Both the position numbers and the translations under genes were made by a program. The notes under the pieces are model-generated. The model made no database searches and was not told the origin of the DNA. It was given only the letters and a program-made list of their open reading frames with translations. Positions 25,173 to 63,175 of a DNA stretch of 64,000 bases are shown here, piece after piece; position 1 is the first letter of the stretch, and every line of letters begins with the position of its first letter. Source of the DNA: Streptomyces sp. OfavH-34-F (GTDB lineage Bacteria; Actinomycetota; Actinomycetes; Streptomycetales; Streptomycetaceae). The DNA is taken from positions 1 through 64,000 of the forward strand of contig NZ_JAKRGC010000004.1 in assembly GCF_022347745.1 (NCBI RefSeq). The letters are read 5' to 3'.

Positions 25173-26651
25173 TCAGGTCTGGGCCATGTCCACGAAGCGT
25201 GAGTAGTGGCCCTGGAAGGCGACCGTGATCGTTGCCGTGGGACCGTTTCGGTGCTTCGCCACGATCAGGTCCGCTTCGCCGGCGCGCGGCGACTCCTTCT
25301 CGTACGCGTCCTCGCGGTGCAGCAGGATCACCATGTCGGCGTCCTGCTCGATGGAGCCGGACTCGCGCAGGTCGGAGACCATCGGCTTCTTGTCCGTGCG
25401 CTGCTCGGGCCCACGGTTCAGCTGGGAGAGCGCGATGACCGGGAGCTGCAGCTCCTTGGCCAGCAGCTTGAGGTTTCGCGACATGTCGGAGACCTCCTGC
25501 TGGCGGCTCTCGGCACGCTTCGAGCCGCCGGACTGCATCAGCTGCAGGTAGTCGATGACCACGAGCTTGAGGTCGTTGCGCTGCTTCAGCCGCCGGCACT
25601 TCGCCCGGATCTCCATCATGGAGAGGTTGGGGGAGTCGTCGATGTAGAGCGGGGCCGCGGAGACGTCCGGCATCCGCCGGGCCAGCCGCGTCCAGTCCTC
25701 GTCGGTCATCGTGCCGGAACGCATGTGGTGCAGGGCCACGCGCGCCTCGGCGGACAGCAGGCGCATGGCGATCTCGTTGCGCCCCATCTCCAGGGAGAAG
25801 ATCACGCTGGGCATGTTGCTCTTGATCGAGCAGGCGCGGGCGAAGTCCAGCGCCAGGGTGGACTTACCCATGGCGGGACGGGCCGCGATGACCACCATCT
25901 GGCCGGGATGCAGGCCGTTGGTCAGGGCGTCGAGGTCGGTGAAGCCCGTGGGCACCCCCGTCATCTCACCGCTGCGGGAGCCGATCGCCTCGATCTCGTC
26001 GAGGGCGCCCTCCATGATGTCGCCGAGCGGGAGGTAGTCCTCGCTGGTCCGCTGCTCGGTGACGGCGTAGATCTCGGCCTGCGCGGAGTTGACGATGTCG
26101 TCCACATCGCCGTCCGCCGCGTATCCCATTTGCGTGATCTTCGTACCGGCCTCGACGAGTCGCCGCAGGACGGCGCGCTCGTGGACGATCTCCGCGTAGT
26201 ACGAGGCGTTGGCCGCCGTGGGGACCGACTGGACCAGCGTGTGCAGATACGGCGCCCCGCCCACCTTGGTGATCTCGCCGCGCTTGACCAGCTCGGCCGC
26301 CACGGTGATCGGGTCGGCCGGCTCACCCTTGGCGTAGAGGTCGAGGATCGCCTGGTAGACGGTTTCGTGAGCCGGGCGGTAGAAGTCGTGGGGCTTGAGG
26401 ACCTCCACGACTTCGGCGATGGCGTCCTTGGAGAGGAGCATGCCGCCGAGCACGGACTGCTCCGCGTCGAGGTCCTGCGGCGGCACCCGTTCGAAACCCG
26501 CGGAGCCGCCTTCCCAGTCATGGCTCTCCCGGCCGCGGTCGTGCCGCTCGCTCCGGTCCCGGTCCTCACTCCTGCGCTGGCGGGAGACGGGCAGCCGGTC
26601 ACTGGGGCCGGTGTCCGCCCAGGGATCGTCCAAGGGTTCGGGAATGCTCAC
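25173..26651 (-). CDS. dnaB: Replicative DNA helicase DnaB
   Basis: DnaB unwinds DNA at the fork and recruits primase. The 492-residue protein has a charged, disordered start (about 60 residues), the DnaB N-terminal domain beginning PPQDLDAEQSVLGGMLL, and a RecA-like core with Walker A ARPAMGKSTLA (Lys263) and Walker B LVVIDYLQLM. No intein interrupts it. The start is GTG 26651, because GGAGGAGGT lies just upstream; a longer frame to 26828 is not needed. A DnaA-box cluster lies 183-271 bp upstream. Confidence 0.96.
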   Translation of the reverse strand: MSIPEPLDDPWADTGPSDRLPVSRQRRSEDRDRSERHDRGRESHDWEGGSAGFERVPPQDLDAEQSVLGGMLLSKDAIAEVVEVLKPHDFYRPAHETVYQAILDLYAKGEPADPITVAAELVKRGEITKVGGAPYLHTLVQSVPTAANASYYAEIVHERAVLRRLVEAGTKITQMGYAADGDVDDIVNSAQAEIYAVTEQRTSEDYLPLGDIMEGALDEIEAIGSRSGEMTGVPTGFTDLDALTNGLHPGQMVVIAARPAMGKSTLALDFARACSIKSNMPSVIFSLEMGRNEIAMRLLSAEARVALHHMRSGTMTDEDWTRLARRMPDVSAAPLYIDDSPNLSMMEIRAKCRRLKQRNDLKLVVIDYLQLMQSGGSKRAESRQQEVSDMSRNLKLLAKELQLPVIALSQLNRGPEQRTDKKPMVSDLRESGSIEQDADMVILLHREDAYEKESPRAGEADLIVAKHRNGPTATITVAFQGHYSRFVDMAQT

Positions 26652-27110
26652 CCGGCCACCTCCTCCCGTCCGCTCCGCGGACCTAGCCGTGCTCCTCTTT
26701 CTTACGGCACGGCACCGACAAACAACGGCCCCGACTCCGGTTCCGGTGTGTCGAGTTCTGCACTGTCGCAGAGCCGAAACAGGGTGGGGGCGCCGGACTA
26801 CGGTAGGCGGCTCGGCACCGTCAGCCAATCTGGTTATCCACAGGCCCTGTGGACGAGCGCCCTGATGCTGTGGAGAACTCCTCAGAACCTGTGCACGGAC
26901 CGGGGGACAGCACTGTGGACAAACTCATAGCCCTCCCATGAAGACCGCCCTGACCTGGAGCTTTTCCATCCACGGGCTGTGGGGGAGAAAAAGTTGGGCC
27001 GTCCGGCCGCGATCGTGGCGCCTCCTGCACGGGAGTGACCTACAGCCGCGTAGATGTAAGGACTCCTGACTGATTGCATCTATTACCTGTGGAAGATTAG
27101 ATTGGCTGCC
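26652..27110. promoter_or_regulatory. Divergent region between dnaB and the MATE gene
   Basis: No gene is seen in these 459 bp. They carry the dnaB promoter region and a DnaA-box cluster at 26834-26922 (separate entry). The stretch 26985-27100 is less GC-rich than its surroundings. Confidence 0.6.
26834..26922. promoter_or_regulatory. DnaA-box cluster upstream of dnaB
   Basis: TTATCCACA (26834-26842, plus strand) and TTGTCCACA (26914-26922, minus strand) are perfect DnaA boxes. TCGTCCACA (26848-26856, minus) and TTCTCCACA (26869-26877, minus) each differ from TTGTCCACA at one base. The first box is half of an interrupted palindrome, TCCACAGG-C-CCTGTGGA. Four boxes in 89 bp outside oriC is well above chance in GC-rich DNA. 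Confidence 0.75.
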
Positions 27111-28445
27111 ATGATCCAGCCACCGGGAGCCTCTTCTTCCCGTCGCCGCCACGACCGCGAGATCATCGCGCTCGCCGTCCCGGCCTTCGGCGCCCTTGTG
27201 GCCGAGCCGCTGTTCGTCATGGTCGACAGTGCGATCGTCGGCCACCTCGGCACTCCCCAACTCGCGGGACTGGCCGTCGCCGCCGCCCTGCTGACGACCG
27301 CGGTGAGCATCTTCGTCTTCCTCGCCTACGCCACCACGGCGGCCGTCGCCAGACGGGTGGGCGCCGGCGATCTGGCCGCCGCGATCCGCCAGGGCATGGA
27401 CGGCATCTGGCTGGCGGTCCTGCTGGGGATCGCCGTCATCGCGCTGACGCTCCCCCTGGCCCCCTGGCTCGTCGACGCGTTCGGCGCCTCCTCCACGGCG
27501 GCACCCCACGCCATCACGTATCTCCGTATCTCCAGCCTCGGCATCCCCGCGATGCTGGTGGTCCTGGCCGCGACCGGCGTCCTCCGGGGCCTCCAGGACA
27601 CCCGTACTCCGCTCTACGTCGCCATCGGAGGGTTCGCCGCCAACGCGGCCCTCAACGCCGTTCTCGTCTACGGCGCCGGTCTGGGAATCGCCGGATCGGC
27701 CTGGGGAACGGTCATAGCCCAGCTCGCGATGGCCGCCGCCTACCTCGTCGTGGTCGTACGCGGCGCCCGCAGGCACGGCGCGTCCCTACGGCCCGATGCC
27801 GCCGGTATCCGGGCCTGCGCACAAGCGGGCGCGCCCCTGCTGGTCCGTACCCTGTCGCTCCGCGCCGTCCTGCTCATCGCCACGGCGGTGGCCGCTCGGC
27901 TCGGGGACACCGACATCGCCGCGCATCAGATCGTCCTGTCCCTGTGGAGCCTGATGGCCTTCGCCCTCGACGCCATCGCCATCGCCGGACAGGCCATCAT
28001 CGGCCGGTACCTCGGTGCGAACGACGTGGGGGGCGCCCGCGAGGCCTGTCGCCGGATGGTGGAGTGGGGCGTCGCGGCCGGTGTGGTCCTGGGCGTGCTG
28101 ATCGTCCTGGCCCGTCCGCTCTTCGTACCGCTGTTCACCAGCGACACCGCGGTCCAGGACGCCCTCCTCCCCGCGCTCCTGGTGGTCGCCGCCACTCAGC
28201 CGATCGCCGGTGTCGTCTTCGTTCTGGACGGAGTCCTGATGGGTGCCGGGGACGGGCCCTACCTGGCCTGGGCGATGTTGCTGACCCTGGCCGTCTTCGC
28301 TCCGGCAGCCCTCCTGGTCCCCACCCTGGGCGGCGGGCTCGGGGCCCTGTGGTGTGCGATGGCACTCATGATGATCGTGCGGATGGCGACGCTCTGGCTC
28401 CGTACCCGCTCGGGCAAGTGGCTGGTCACCGGCGCGACCCGCTGA
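27111..28445 (+). CDS. MATE-family efflux transporter
   Basis: The 444-residue protein has twelve membrane segments and the MATE signatures EIIALAVPAFGALVAEPLFVMVDSAIVGHLG and the matching repeat near VRTLSLRAVLLIATAVAARLGDTDIAAHQI. It should export cationic drugs or metabolites using H+ or Na+. ATG 27111 is used. TTG 27102 has GGAAG at better spacing and may be the true start, adding three residues. It is divergent from dnaB and convergent with rplI. Confidence 0.9.
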   Translation: MIQPPGASSSRRRHDREIIALAVPAFGALVAEPLFVMVDSAIVGHLGTPQLAGLAVAAALLTTAVSIFVFLAYATTAAVARRVGAGDLAAAIRQGMDGIWLAVLLGIAVIALTLPLAPWLVDAFGASSTAAPHAITYLRISSLGIPAMLVVLAATGVLRGLQDTRTPLYVAIGGFAANAALNAVLVYGAGLGIAGSAWGTVIAQLAMAAAYLVVVVRGARRHGASLRPDAAGIRACAQAGAPLLVRTLSLRAVLLIATAVAARLGDTDIAAHQIVLSLWSLMAFALDAIAIAGQAIIGRYLGANDVGGAREACRRMVEWGVAAGVVLGVLIVLARPLFVPLFTSDTAVQDALLPALLVVAATQPIAGVVFVLDGVLMGAGDGPYLAWAMLLTLAVFAPAALLVPTLGGGLGALWCAMALMMIVRMATLWLRTRSGKWLVTGATR

Positions 28446-54217: not shown

Positions 54218-55297
54218 TCAGCCTTCGTCGTCCGCGGTCGCGTCCTCGGACTGAGCACGGTCCAGTACCCGGCCCTCGCCCGGCGCGAGACTGCCGAGGA
54301 TGCGGTCCAGATCCTCCATCGAGGCGAACTCGACGACGATCTTTCCCTTCTTCTGCCCCAGATCGACCTTCACGCGCGTCTCGAAGCGATCGGAGAGCCG
54401 GGACGCCAGGTCGGAAAGCGCCGGAGAAACCCGGGCGCCCGCCCGAGGACCCTTGGCCTTCTTGGTGCTCGTGGGCCCGGAACCCATGAGCGTCACGATC
54501 TCCTCGACGGCACGTACCGAAAGCCCCTCGGCCACGATGCGATGGGCCAGCTTGTCCTGCTCCTCGGAGTCGTCCACCGAGAGCAGGGCCCGCGCGTGGC
54601 CCGCCGACAGCACGCCGGCGGCCACCCTGCGCTGGACCGGCGCCGACAACCGCAGCAGCCGCAGCGTGTTGGACACCTGGGGCCTGGACCTCCCGATCCG
54701 GTCGGCCAGCTGGTCATGCGTGCACTTGAAGTCCTTGAGCAGCTGGTCGTACGCAGCCGCTTCCTCCAGCGGGTTCAGCTGAGCCCGGTGCAGGTTCTCC
54801 AGGAGGGCGTCAAGGAGAAGCTTCTCGTCGTCGGTGGCCCGAACGATGGCAGGGATACGCTCCAGGCCCGCCTCTCGGCAGGCCCTCCAACGCCGCTCGC
54901 CCATGATGAGCTCAAAGCGGTCTGTCCCGGTCTTCCGCACCACGACCGGCTGGAGCAGACCCACCTCCTTGATGGAGGTAACCAGTTCCGCCAGCGCGTC
55001 CTCGTCGAAGACCTCACGCGGCTGACGCGGGTTGGGCGTGATGGAGTCGAGCGGTACCTCGGCGAAGTACGCACCGGCCACGTCGCCCTCGACGCGTGCG
55101 TCGGACACCGGCGCGCTCGGCTCCGGCACCACCGGATTGGCACCCAGCGTGGTCACCTTGGCGGCGGCCACCCCGCGTTCCGTGGTGAGAACGGGCGAAC
55201 CGGTTCCGGCACCGTTGGACGGCAGCTGCTTCTCCTGCGGAGCAGCAGGGATCAGGGCACCGAGCCCTCGCCCCAACCCTCGACGACGCTCACTCAC
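54218..55297 (-). CDS. parB: Chromosome-partitioning protein ParB
   Basis: ParB binds parS and spreads as a CTP-dependent clamp, building the segregation complex near oriC. The 359-residue protein starts [17 protein letters not shown] (helix that contacts ParA), has the CTP-binding GERRWRA motif (about 130) and the KorB/ParB helix-turn-helix (about 170-230, [21 protein letters not shown]). It ends in a dimerisation domain. Its ATG overlaps the parA stop by 4 bp, so the two are coupled. Confidence 0.97.
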
Positions 55298-56370
55298 TGG
55301 ATCCCCTCCGAATTGCTCTGCTGACTGATCGAACCGCCCGTGTGGGCGTGCTGGCCCTCGTACTGCACCCCGACCCCTCGCAGCGCGATCTCGCGAGCCG
55401 CCTCAAGGTACGACAGCGAGCCGCTGGAACCGGGGTCGTAGGTGAGCACGGTCTGCCCGTAGCTCGGCGCCTCGGAGATACGGACCGACCGGGGAATGCT
55501 GGTCCGCAGCACCTCCTTGCCGAAGTGGCTGCGCACCTCCTCCGCCACCTGCGACGCCAGCCTGGTACGGCCGTCGTACATGGTGAGGAGGATGGTCGAC
55601 ACATGCAGGTCGGGGTTGAGGTGGCCTCGTACCAGCTCGACGTTGCGCAGGAGCTGGCCCAGCCCCTCCAGCGCGTAGTACTCGCACTGGATGGGGATCA
55701 GCACCTCTGCGCCGGCCACCAGCGCGTTGACCGTCAGCAGACCCAGCGAGGGCGGGCAGTCAATCAGGATGTAGTCCAGCGGCTGCTCATACGCCTGGAT
55801 GGCGCGCTGAAGTCGACTCTCCCGCGCCACCAGCGACACCAGCTCGATCTCCGCACCGGCGAGATCGATGGTGGCCGGGGCGCAGAAGAGGCCTTCGACG
55901 TCCTTTACGGGCTGAACCACATCGGAGAGCGGCTTGCTCTCCACCAGGACGTCATAGATCGAGGGAACTTCGGCGTGATGGTCGATGCCCAGAGCCGTGG
56001 AGGCGTTGCCCTGCGGGTCGAGGTCCACCACCAGGACACGGGCACCGTGCAATGCCAGTGACGCAGCAAGGTTGACCGTGGAGGTGGTCTTACCCACCCC
56101 GCCCTTCTGGTTGGCCACAACCATGACGCGCGTCTGCTCGGGCCTCGGCAGCCCTTCGCCGGCACGGCCGAGGGCTTCCACCGCCAGCTGGGCCGCGCGA
56201 CCGATGGGTGTGTCGTCCATCGGCGGCGGTGTTTCACGTGAAACACCGTCTCCCGCCGATTCGGTTCGGGGACCGGGGACCGGATCGGTCATCGGCCCCG
56301 CGATGTTGGCGTCGGACCGCAAGGATTCACTCTCCTCGACTTCAGGCTCGCAATGAGCAGAGCCTGTCAT
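55294..56370 (-). CDS. parA: Chromosome-partitioning ATPase ParA
   Basis: ParA is the Walker-type ATPase that moves ParB-parS complexes and polarises them in hyphae. The deviant Walker [14 protein letters not shown] is near residue 112 and Walker A' [10 protein letters not shown] follows. The first 90 residues are acidic and disordered. The start is uncertain: ATG 56370 (MTGSAHC) matches what I recall of S. coelicolor ParA but has a weak ribosome site; the open frame reaches 56562, and a later Met is possible. A parS inside the gene encodes VSRET. Confidence 0.94.
56231..56244. other. parS site (perfect) inside the 5' part of parA
   Basis: GTTTCACGTGAAAC, extended to a 22-bp perfect palindrome (56227-56248). 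On the minus strand it encodes VSRET in the disordered start of ParA. ParB bound here could feed back on parAB transcription. Confidence 0.92.
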
Positions 56371-56406
56371 GGTTTCGGGGTCGTGAACCAGCGAGGCCCG
56401 CTCTTC

Positions 56407-56433
56407 TGTGGATGAAACCACTTCTGTGGACAA
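56407..56433 (-). promoter_or_regulatory. DnaA boxes upstream of parA
   Basis: TTGTCCACA (56425-56433, minus strand) is a perfect DnaA box. TCATCCACA (56407-56415, minus) differs from TTATCCACA at one base. Both lie 37-63 bp upstream of the presumed parA start. They may tie partition genes to DnaA level. Confidence 0.6.
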
Positions 56434-56516
56434 CTCCGTAGCCCTAACGGGTCTGCGATGGGGAGGGGCGGCTGCCTCATGACCGCGACCGATGATTCCA
56501 TGCAGCAGAGAACGAC

Positions 56517-56530
56517 GTTTCACGTGAAAC
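56517..56530. other. parS site (perfect) between rsmG and parA
   Basis: GTTTCACGTGAAAC 147 bp upstream of the presumed parA start and 81 bp after the rsmG stop. It is the perfect parS closest to oriC in this window, about 6 kb away. Confidence 0.93.
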
Positions 56531-56611
56531 ACGATGCCTCCGCAGCGTAGCCACGGAGTCACGACACTCCGCGTGGGGCCCCCGTACGCTCCACGCCAGG
56601 GGTTACCGCCC

Positions 56612-60114: not shown

Positions 60115-60495
60115 TCGGGGGCTCCAGAAATGACTCGGGTGTTGGCGGGACATCGCCTGGCTGTCACCGTGCGCCCACGAGGGACTCGCGTAAACGCTCT
60201 AGTGCACCGCTTCACAATCACAGATCGTGATCTTTGCCCATCGGAGGCAGGCGGCAGCAGCCATCGACAACTCGACCTGGTCACGGTACGCGCGGCTACG
60301 CCATCCGGTCAAACCGACCCTGTCGGGGCCTCCATTGTGCACAGCCTGTGGACAACGACTTGAACGACGCGGGTCGTGCTGACTACCGTGACTGAACTCC
60401 GGTTCTTTTTCTTCCCGCCTGCCGGTCCTCACCCACCCCGACCCCAACCGTCCCGAGAACCACACATTCGTGGGACCAGCGAGAGAGCGTGCCTT
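60115..60495. promoter_or_regulatory. rpmH-dnaA divergent region with dnaA-promoter DnaA boxes
   Basis: No gene is seen in these 381 bp. Two DnaA boxes lie 12 bp apart: TTGTGCACA (60335-60343, plus, one mismatch) and TTGTCCACA (60347-60355, minus, perfect), about 150 bp upstream of the dnaA GTG. DnaA boxes in the dnaA promoter that mediate self-repression are known in Streptomyces. Confidence 0.75.
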
Positions 60496-62298
60496 GTGGC
60501 TGACGTACCTGCCGATCTTGCCGCAGTGTGGCCACGCGTGCTGGAGCAACTCCTCGGGGAGGGGCAGCAGGGCATCGAGCCGAAGGACAAGCAGTGGATC
60601 GAGCGCTGCCAGCCGCTCGCCCTGGTGGCCGACACCGCGCTGCTGGCCGTCCCCAACGAGTGGGGCAAGCGGGTCCTGGAGGGCCGCCTCGCCCCTCTCA
60701 TCAGCGAGACGCTGAGCCGCGAGTGCGGGCGCCCCATCCGGATCGCGATCACGGTGGACGACTCCGCCGGCGAACCGTCGGGTCCGCCCGCGCCCCCGAT
60801 GCACCAGTCCTCCCAGCCGCCCCACCGCTACCAGGGCCCCCAGCACGACGAGGGCCGGCACGGCGACGCGTACGACGGGTACGGAAGCCGGTCCGCGGAC
60901 GACGGCATGCCGACCGCGCGCCCCGCCTACCCCGACTACCAGCAGCAGCGCCCGGAGCCCGGCGCCTGGCCGCGCACCCAGGAGGACCTGTCCTGGCAGC
61001 AGCCCCGGCTCGGCGGCTTCCAGGACCGCGAGCCCTCCGCCGACCAGTGGCGCGAGCCGTACGGCGGCCGGGGTCCGCAGCAGCCGCAGCACGACTACCG
61101 CCCGCAGCCGCCCGAGCGCCAGGGGTACGAGTCCCCGCACACCGAGCGCTCCCGGCCCGAGCTGCCGGAGCCGCAGCACCGCCCCGGCGCGGGCACCGGT
61201 CGGCCGGGCGGAGGCACCGGTCCGATGGGCGCCCAGCCGTCCCCGGCCCCCGGCCCCGGCGAGCCGCACGCCCGGCTCAACCCGAAGTACCTCTTCGACA
61301 CCTTCGTCATCGGGGCCTCGAACCGCTTCGCGCACGCCGCGGCCGTCGCAGTGGCCGAGGCGCCCGCGAAGGCGTACAACCCCCTGTTCGTCTACGGGGA
61401 GTCCGGGCTCGGCAAGACCCATCTGCTGCACGCCATCGGGCACTACGCGCGGAGTCTGTATCCGGGCACCCGGGTGCGGTACGTCAGCTCCGAGGAGTTC
61501 ACCAACGAGTTCATCAACTCGATCCGCGACGGCAAGGGCGATACCTTCCGCAAGCGGTACCGCGACGTGGACATCCTGCTCGTCGACGACATCCAGTTCC
61601 TGGCGAGCAAGGAGTCGACGCAGGAGGAGTTCTTCCACACCTTCAATACGCTCCACAACGCCAACAAGCAGATCGTGCTCTCCTCCGACCGGCCGCCGAA
61701 GCAACTGGTCACGCTGGAGGACCGGCTGCGGAATCGTTTCGAGTGGGGGCTGACCACCGACGTACAGCCGCCCGAGCTGGAGACCCGCATCGCGATCCTG
61801 CGCAAGAAGGCAGTGCAGGAGCAGCTCAACGCCCCGCCGGAGGTGCTGGAGTTCATCGCTTCCCGTATCTCCCGCAACATCCGTGAGCTGGAGGGCGCGC
61901 TCATCCGGGTGACGGCCTTCGCCAGTCTGAACCGCCAGCCGGTGGACCTGGGGCTCACGGAGATCGTGCTGAAGGACCTGATCCCCGGCGGTGAGGACAC
62001 CGCGCCCGAGATCACGGCGACGGCCATCATGGCGGCGACCGCGGACTACTTCGGGCTGACGGTGGAGGACCTGTGCGGATCGTCGCGCAGCCGTGTGCTG
62101 GTGACGGCCCGGCAGATCGCCATGTATCTGTGCCGTGAGCTGACCGATCTCTCGCTGCCGAAGATCGGCGCGCAGTTCGGCGGCCGGGACCATACGACGG
62201 TGATGCACGCGGACCGCAAGATCCGGGCGCTGATGGCCGAACGGCGGTCCATCTACAACCAGGTCACCGAACTCACCAACCGCATCAAGAACGGCTGA
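60496..62298 (+). CDS. dnaA: Chromosomal replication initiator DnaA
   Basis: DnaA binds DnaA boxes and opens oriC. The 600-residue protein has domain I (about 1-85), a very long Pro/Gln/Arg-rich domain II (about 90-250) special to Streptomyces, and AAA+ domain III with Walker [16 protein letters not shown] (Lys307) and Walker [12 protein letters not shown]. Domain IV follows with the signature [18 protein letters not shown] 60496 is used, with GAGAGAGCG upstream. An 18-bp terminator follows. Confidence 0.97.
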
Positions 62299-62589: not shown

Positions 62590-63175
62590 TCACGGGTGTT
62601 CTCCACAGATCCGGGCACTTTTTTCCCTCCACAGCCTGGGGATCCAAAAGTTGTCCATACTGCATCCACAGGCACAGCCGGCCGAAGCGCATCAGGGCAG
62701 CTCAGAGGGTTGGGGATTTGTGGCCAACGATGATCCACAGGCTGTGGAAAAAATCTTCGTCCACAGGGACCGGTCCGCGTTGTCCACTGGCTACCCACAG
62801 GCCCGAGGCCGTTTTCCCCAGTCAGAGACCGCTTCTCCACACCGCTGTCCACTGTTCGGCAACACGACAGGCCCCGTCACCGACGCGAGTGAAAGGCGTC
62901 ACACCAAGAGGGATGGTTGGCCTGTGGGGAACGGGGGTAAAGCTGGGGACAGACCTGGGGAGAAAGTGACCTCCCCTGTGTACGGCTTGTGCACAACTTC
63001 CGGGTGTCCACAGAGAGCCCGAGTTGTCCACTGGTGCCACCCACAGGCGCGGTGGATAAAAAACGGGCGCTGACCTGCGAAAACGGGGTTATCCACGGTT
63101 TCCACAGGCCCTACTACTACCACCACTCATAGTTGGCCCGGTTTCCGTTTCGAAGTGGGGCCTGTGCACAACTCG
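62590..63175. other. Origin of replication oriC
   Basis: About 20 DnaA boxes (TTGTCCACA and one- or two-base variants) fill the dnaA-dnaN gap. Plus strand: 62599, 62625, 62651, 62662, 62731, 62757, 62780, 62791, 62833, 62845, 63004, 63024, 63037, 63089 and 63098. Minus strand: 62743, 62923, 63051 and 63163. A palindromic TTGTGCACAA is at 62987. All positions are box starts. Few boxes are perfect matches, as is known for Streptomyces oriC. Short A/T runs (62619-62624, 62748-62753, 63057-63063) are candidate opening or spacing elements. No gene is present. Confidence 0.95.

Follow-up and report, generated by a model that had tools for sequence, protein, structure and literature searches.

DnaA has been linked to the expression of the replicative helicase gene, dnaB, in a few bacteria. 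The closest described system is the mycobacterial one: the region upstream of dnaB is one of the five top regions bound by M. tuberculosis DnaA in vitro (IDAP-seq) and by M. smegmatis DnaA in vivo (ChIP-seq), and in the DnaA mutant I282T weaker binding at this site is accompanied by under-expression of dnaB, according to the accessible part of that report (PMC7738170). Predicted DnaA boxes also lie upstream of dnaB in Caulobacter crescentus, a member of another phylum, whose DnaA regulon was found by delaying dnaA transcription and includes dnaB, as summarized in the available text of a review (PMC8203912). In E. coli, the promoter of nrdAB, which serves replication supply, likewise carries DnaA boxes, and DnaA can activate or repress it depending on its level and bound nucleotide; this promoter differs in having three boxes, and no helically phased array like the one reported below is described for it in the available text of the same review (PMC8203912). 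Cells have to match helicase supply to the initiation of replication, and Streptomyces must do so in hyphae that contain many genomes.

Here, we describe a cluster of DnaA boxes upstream of dnaB in Streptomyces sp. OfavH-34-F, within a 64,000-nucleotide stretch of one contig (hereafter the window). By computation, we established the boxes, how far they are conserved, how they are phased, that they go with dnaB and where they stand relative to a conserved promoter-like sequence. The cluster is likely to be a conserved DnaA-responsive control region of dnaB. It concerns the same gene, in the same class, as the mycobacterial site, for which the accessible text describes neither box spacing nor promoter position, and its boxes have a fixed spacing of their own.

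The cluster consists of four boxes, TTATCCACA, TCGTCCACA, TTCTCCACA and TTGTCCACA, all inside 89 bp (26834-26922), exactly where a preliminary description of this DNA had placed them. Box 1 (TTATCCACA, 26834..26842) is on the plus strand, antisense to dnaB. Box 2 (TCGTCCACA, 26848..26856), box 3 (TTCTCCACA, 26869..26877) and box 4 (TTGTCCACA, 26914..26922) are on the minus strand. Boxes 1 and 4 are the strong end boxes, and boxes 2 and 3 have one mismatch each. Boxes 1 and 2 are the halves of a palindrome, CCACAGGCCCTGTGG; the same description had noted that one perfect box is part of a palindrome. Its count of two perfect boxes holds for the degenerate motif TT(A/G)TCCACA but not against the high-affinity box given for S. 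coelicolor in the available text, TTGTCCACA (PMC4285127), to which the last box alone corresponds perfectly. Two further minus-strand positions, CCGTGCACA (26890..26898) and CTGTCCCCC (26902..26910), are in register and have three mismatches in this genome, where the latter may not work. The minus-strand positions fall at 14, 35, 56, 68 and 80 when counted from the initial base of box 1, those at 56 and 68 being weak.

We counted boxes in the window as TTRTCCACA with at most one mismatch, using 200 dinucleotide shuffles as the null, and found 37 boxes against 8.3 ± 3.0. A density of four boxes per 100 bp was reached in the window only in the dnaB gap and at oriC (62719-63097), and in none of the 200 shuffles, which rules out a chance origin of the cluster. 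Genome-wide, there are 50 perfect TTRTCCACA words, and the dnaB pair is among five pairs spaced by less than 100 bp. The cluster lies about 36 kb from oriC, in the gap between dnaB and a MATE gene, both as originally described. As regards a second replication origin, the box arrangement is unlike that of the window's own oriC, and the two follow different spacing rules (see below): the dnaB cluster extends over approximately 90 bp with four to six box positions, while the box groups of oriC extend over approximately 570 bp. Elsewhere in the window, a box pair at 60335/60347 precedes dnaA (60376-62298; Pfam Bac_DnaA and Bac_DnaA_C), which fits the dnaA autoregulation reported in Streptomyces lividans (PMC8203912, available text). 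Two same-strand boxes, TCATCCACA and TTGTCCACA, lie 18 bp apart at 56407-56433, either within the 5' end of parA or immediately ahead of it.

The array is located about midway in a divergent gap of 459 bp. On one side is dnaB, encoding the replicative DNA helicase (25173..26651, minus strand; TIGR00665, E 3e-166), with a GTG start at 26651 and a ribosome binding site read from the sequence as GGAGGAGG (26659-26666). On the other side is a gene for a MATE family transporter (27111..28445, plus strand; TIGR00797, E 4e-101), with an ATG start at 27111. A longer dnaB reading frame from TTG 26828 is unlikely to be the gene, because matches to the protein read from GTG 26651 start at residue 1 in 30/30 related loci, and beyond that point several relatives show stop codons or lose the match. 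In S. coelicolor numbering, dnaB forms one end of a conserved streptomycete origin island, SCO3872-SCO3911, according to the accessible text of the report (PMC8743542). The dnaB protein matches were split within a single long open frame in many actinobacteria, including some Streptomyces (G103, G271 and G296); splitting inside one frame suggests inteins.

Conservation in Streptomycetaceae was assessed on 30 dnaB loci fetched through a protein match from 61 genomes searched, the present genome included. Box 1 is the same 9-mer in all 30. Box 2 is found within one mismatch in 27/30 loci, and boxes 3 and 4 in 30/30, box 4 often as TTGTTCACA. Boxes 1, 3 and 4 keep the same distances in 29 loci, with box 3 at +35 and box 4 at +80; in the remaining one (L022), boxes 3 and 4 are displaced together by 11 bp, one helical turn. 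Column conservation reached 0.95-1.00 in the boxes, compared with 0.81-0.87 in the spacers between them, 0.81 in the left flank and 0.73 in the right flank. Since the spacers are themselves fairly conserved, the boxes are not the sole conserved element.

A pattern with the exact box spacing matched 233 of 297 Streptomycetaceae genomes, in 13/17 genera and never more than once per genome, and the reversed control pattern matched none of the 297. The exact pattern occurs in at least 116 stretches of named genomes; among the matches listed are Streptomyces, two Kitasatospora and a single entry under the name Saccharothrix. The exact pattern was lacking in 64 family genomes, of which 30 were looked at and 28 analysed; G080 and G097 were left out, since the locus retrieved for them was something other than the start of dnaB. 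Two or more boxes were present in 27 of these 28, and the remaining one (G093) is at a contig edge. The layout was the same in 22 of the 27 save for an altered box or a shift by one base or 11 bp, and was different in five (genera g15 and g18). A set of 139 unique family loci had their boxes pre-selected by the search pattern, and we therefore used them for the promoter and the weak boxes only. In this set, the weak position at 26890-26898 was within two mismatches in 68% of loci and that at 26902-26910 in 42%.

At the level of the class, we compared the DNA upstream of dnaB in 118 genomes; these represent 33 families, all but one of which are other than Streptomycetaceae. The set contains 102/108 non-family genomes, 15 genomes of the same order and one Streptomyces (G103); G056, G360, G405, G409 and G429 were left out for lack of a usable N-terminal match or for a contig edge, and G387 is absent through an oversight. 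The 700 bp before dnaB contain 423 boxes, against 18.7 ± 4.3 in 30 shuffle rounds. Sixty permuted motifs averaged 12.8 matches in the same regions, with 62 at most. Together with the shuffles, these values rule out box-like words arising from base composition. At least two boxes were present in 105/118 genomes, compared with 0-5 in ten shuffle rounds. The proximal stretch contains 3.6 boxes per genome and the stretch 750-1450 bp upstream 0.18 (117 regions, the G447 region of 620 bases being absent); the shuffles are the better control, because this distal stretch is probably mostly coding. In 29/33 families, at least one genome has two or more boxes, and the family median is at least two in 27; four families had no genome with two boxes among those examined. 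The boxes are also oriented, 328/423 pointing in the dnaB direction, with a majority doing so in 28/33 families. Conservation of the boxes upstream of dnaB, which the preliminary description had proposed as a check, is thus kept through the family and most of the examined families of the class. The boxes are conserved with the gene that they would regulate, as in a DnaA-regulated promoter. In other classes of the phylum, 73 genomes were searched and 26 loci returned, of which just five had at least two boxes (mean 0.69, compared with 0.27 further upstream). A phylum-wide rule was rejected on this basis.

The same data bear on whether the sequence is kept for another protein or an RNA, its likeness to DnaA boxes being secondary. 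The entire gap is fairly conserved (mean 0.80 in the 30 family loci), as such an explanation would have it, but only the true letter order of the motif is strongly enriched among the permuted versions, and mycobacterial DnaA itself binds upstream of dnaB, as far as the accessible report describes (PMC7738170). We regard this explanation as extremely improbable. A known structured RNA was rejected, as an Rfam search returned no family at the gathering score and one chance-level match (E 0.71) outside the array.

The divergent MATE gene could in principle be the regulated target in place of dnaB. The midway position of the array would suit this, and so would a box-like word with two mismatches (27088-27096) in the spacer of the predicted MATE promoter, TTGCAT-18-TAGATT (27074..27103, plus strand), which we assigned from conserved columns. 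Across the class, a MATE match was present in the fetched stretch of 40/118 genomes, and the number of boxes did not depend on it: the mean upstream of dnaB was 3.35 with MATE and 3.71 without, and at least two boxes were found in 36/40 genomes with MATE nearby and in 69/78 without. MATE as the conserved target was rejected on these numbers, and a role of the array for this gene rather than dnaB is very improbable. The MATE mRNA itself may be leaderless, because its predicted promoter ends just before the ATG (27074-27113).

The spacing of the boxes is helically phased. Same-strand box distances across the class showed a period of 10.8 bp (R = 0.60, 365 pairs; null maximum 0.16), this period having been fitted to the class data. 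Since related genomes are not independent, we repeated the calculation with one genome per family and obtained a mean R of 0.72 (null maximum 0.34). None of the 166 pairs within 58 bp fell into the out-of-phase bins, which were picked after seeing the data. The oriC boxes of the window did not show the 10.8-bp period (R = 0.02; 20 pairs from one genome). Several Streptomyces (L022, L316-L321 and L323; window 26829-26830) have an 11-bp shift and an extra box in the array. Such a natural shift by one turn preserves the phasing, an observation in favour of the phase mattering.

Between the array and dnaB, we predicted a promoter on the minus strand, with TTGGCT as the -35 (26823..26828) and TACCGT as the -10 (26800..26805). 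Read toward dnaB, the order is box 1, 5 bp, TTGGCT, 17 bp and TACCGT, with transcription expected to start near 26793; the array would then span approximately -41 to -129. These elements were assigned through conservation alone, and a generic sigma-70 scan of the region found no promoter. The TTG is present in 139/139 unique family loci and TANNNT in 132/139, and box 1 and the predicted promoter are separated by the same distance in 132/139. The HrdB regulon described for S. coelicolor includes dnaB (SCO3911); the study concerned took TANNNT as the -10 motif and found that most HrdB promoters lack a -35 or conserve it weakly (PMC6344877, accessible text). In the class set, TTG-(16-18)-TANNNT was located near the dnaB-proximal box in only 44/114 box-carrying genomes, a count made without a shuffled control, and 25 of these 44 matches start 0-19 bp beyond that box. 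In the window, several boxes, more than expected by chance, lie near a predicted promoter.

Because the phased boxes end just upstream of the -35, the array looks like an activating control region, and the effect of DnaA on dnaB is probably activating by analogy with mycobacteria, the sign being taken from one mutant. The opposite sign has precedents: E. coli DnaA-ATP represses nrdAB at high levels, and also dnaA itself, according to the available review text (PMC8203912), and a repressing DnaA would lower helicase production when active DnaA is abundant. At the present locus, no box covers the core promoter, all four being located upstream of the predicted -35, and the mycobacterial mutant that binds less at dnaB under-expresses the gene, in the portion of the report available (PMC7738170). 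Repression is accordingly improbable in our assessment, though less so than a role for MATE.

For the activating control of dnaB, we propose the following mechanism; that DnaA binds at this locus, that it activates and does not repress, and that the boxes fill cooperatively is what we infer. DnaA would bind the strong end boxes 1 and 4, which would nucleate the assembly, and the weaker middle boxes would then be occupied cooperatively along a single helical face. Directly upstream of a predicted HrdB-type -35, such an assembly would most likely help RNA polymerase, by contact or by positioning. The supply of helicase would thereby track the level of active DnaA. The proposal of the preliminary description that dnaB is under DnaA control is well supported by indirect evidence, namely the conserved boxes, the adjacent predicted promoter, the independence from MATE and the DnaA occupancy in mycobacteria. 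A conserved phased array beside the dnaB promoter also makes this coupling testable through small mutations.

The alternative offered in that description was a DnaA reservoir similar to datA. The datA locus of E. coli, likewise a DnaA-box cluster outside oriC, depends on IHF and stimulates the hydrolysis of ATP bound to DnaA. As a titration site, the array would mainly soak up DnaA and dnaB would merely be adjacent. The cluster lies 36 kb from oriC, any such array must bind some DnaA, and the effect would parallel that of datA or of the extra-oriC clusters described for S. coelicolor. In contrast to datA, the present cluster is tied to a predicted promoter. Two or more boxes precede dnaB in 105/118 genomes of the class set whatever the neighbouring gene, they mostly point toward dnaB, and they occupy a fixed place before the predicted promoter. 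A pure sink needs none of these three features, and titration leaves the tie of the boxes to one gene unexplained. Because the layout is promoter-coupled, dnaB-linked and phased, we argue that titration, which may occur as a side effect, is not the main purpose; as the principal explanation it is unlikely, although it is the least improbable of the rivals to dnaB control.

Three extra-oriC DnaA-box clusters of S. coelicolor, H69, H24 and D78, are named after cosmids. We take H24 to be probably the locus of the dnaB array, on the assumption that cosmid H24 carries parAB and would reach dnaB; in the window, parB and parA occupy 54218-56562 (Pfam). If so, the cluster itself was already seen in 2006. 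A literature search for the cluster names gave no paper, and "cosmid H24" was absent from the papers listed. Control of dnaB by a DnaA-box cluster is a kind of system already known; the class-wide reach, the phasing and the promoter geometry are the new part. Within the partial coverage of our literature search, there was no report of control of dnaB by the Streptomyces cluster, of its class-wide conservation or of its phasing, and term searches of the accessible text of PMC13121528, PMC2824715, PMC3613396, PMC3411110, PMC8653842, PMC9099993 and PMC4255298 gave nothing on this cluster.

A second conserved DnaA site is available for comparison. In this genome, crgA and a rhomboid gene converge, and the interval between their 3' ends holds DnaA boxes (L312 2489-2699; G000:C444:81988-82198), outside the window and approximately 19 kb beyond oriC. 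A match was present in 116 genomes, and our counts cover 30 of them, including ten Streptomyces. The 700 bp adjoining the 3' end of crgA contained at least two boxes in 28/30 loci (L346-L375), including 18/20 from non-Streptomyces; on the 5' side, this was so in 0/30. With Rv0011c taken by us to be crgA, this site may correspond to the mycobacterial Rv0010c-Rv0011c site; we presume that it may also be the H69 cluster of S. coelicolor. According to the accessible text of the report, other species lack an obvious counterpart of the mycobacterial site (PMC7738170). We tentatively suggest, with somewhat less than even confidence, an ancestral circuit of the class Actinomycetes in which the phased array reads the level of active DnaA and sets helicase supply, and the crgA 3' site couples the same signal to cell division. 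If this is true, most of the class would share one fixed wiring between replication and division, and its box phasing would be one that the window's oriC does not show. The coupling at dnaB would turn the single reports from mycobacteria and Caulobacter into a rule for most of one class.

Further box groups were observed at another locus of the genome. Five boxes lie between a prephenate dehydratase gene and serS (L313; G000:C521:12111-12407), and three near 21.5 kb (G000:C521:21477-21530). We assume that these groups are possibly the D78 region of S. coelicolor, which Smulczyk-Krawczyszyn et al. reportedly studied in 2006 as a DnaA sink. The boxes include plus/minus pairs 25 bp apart.
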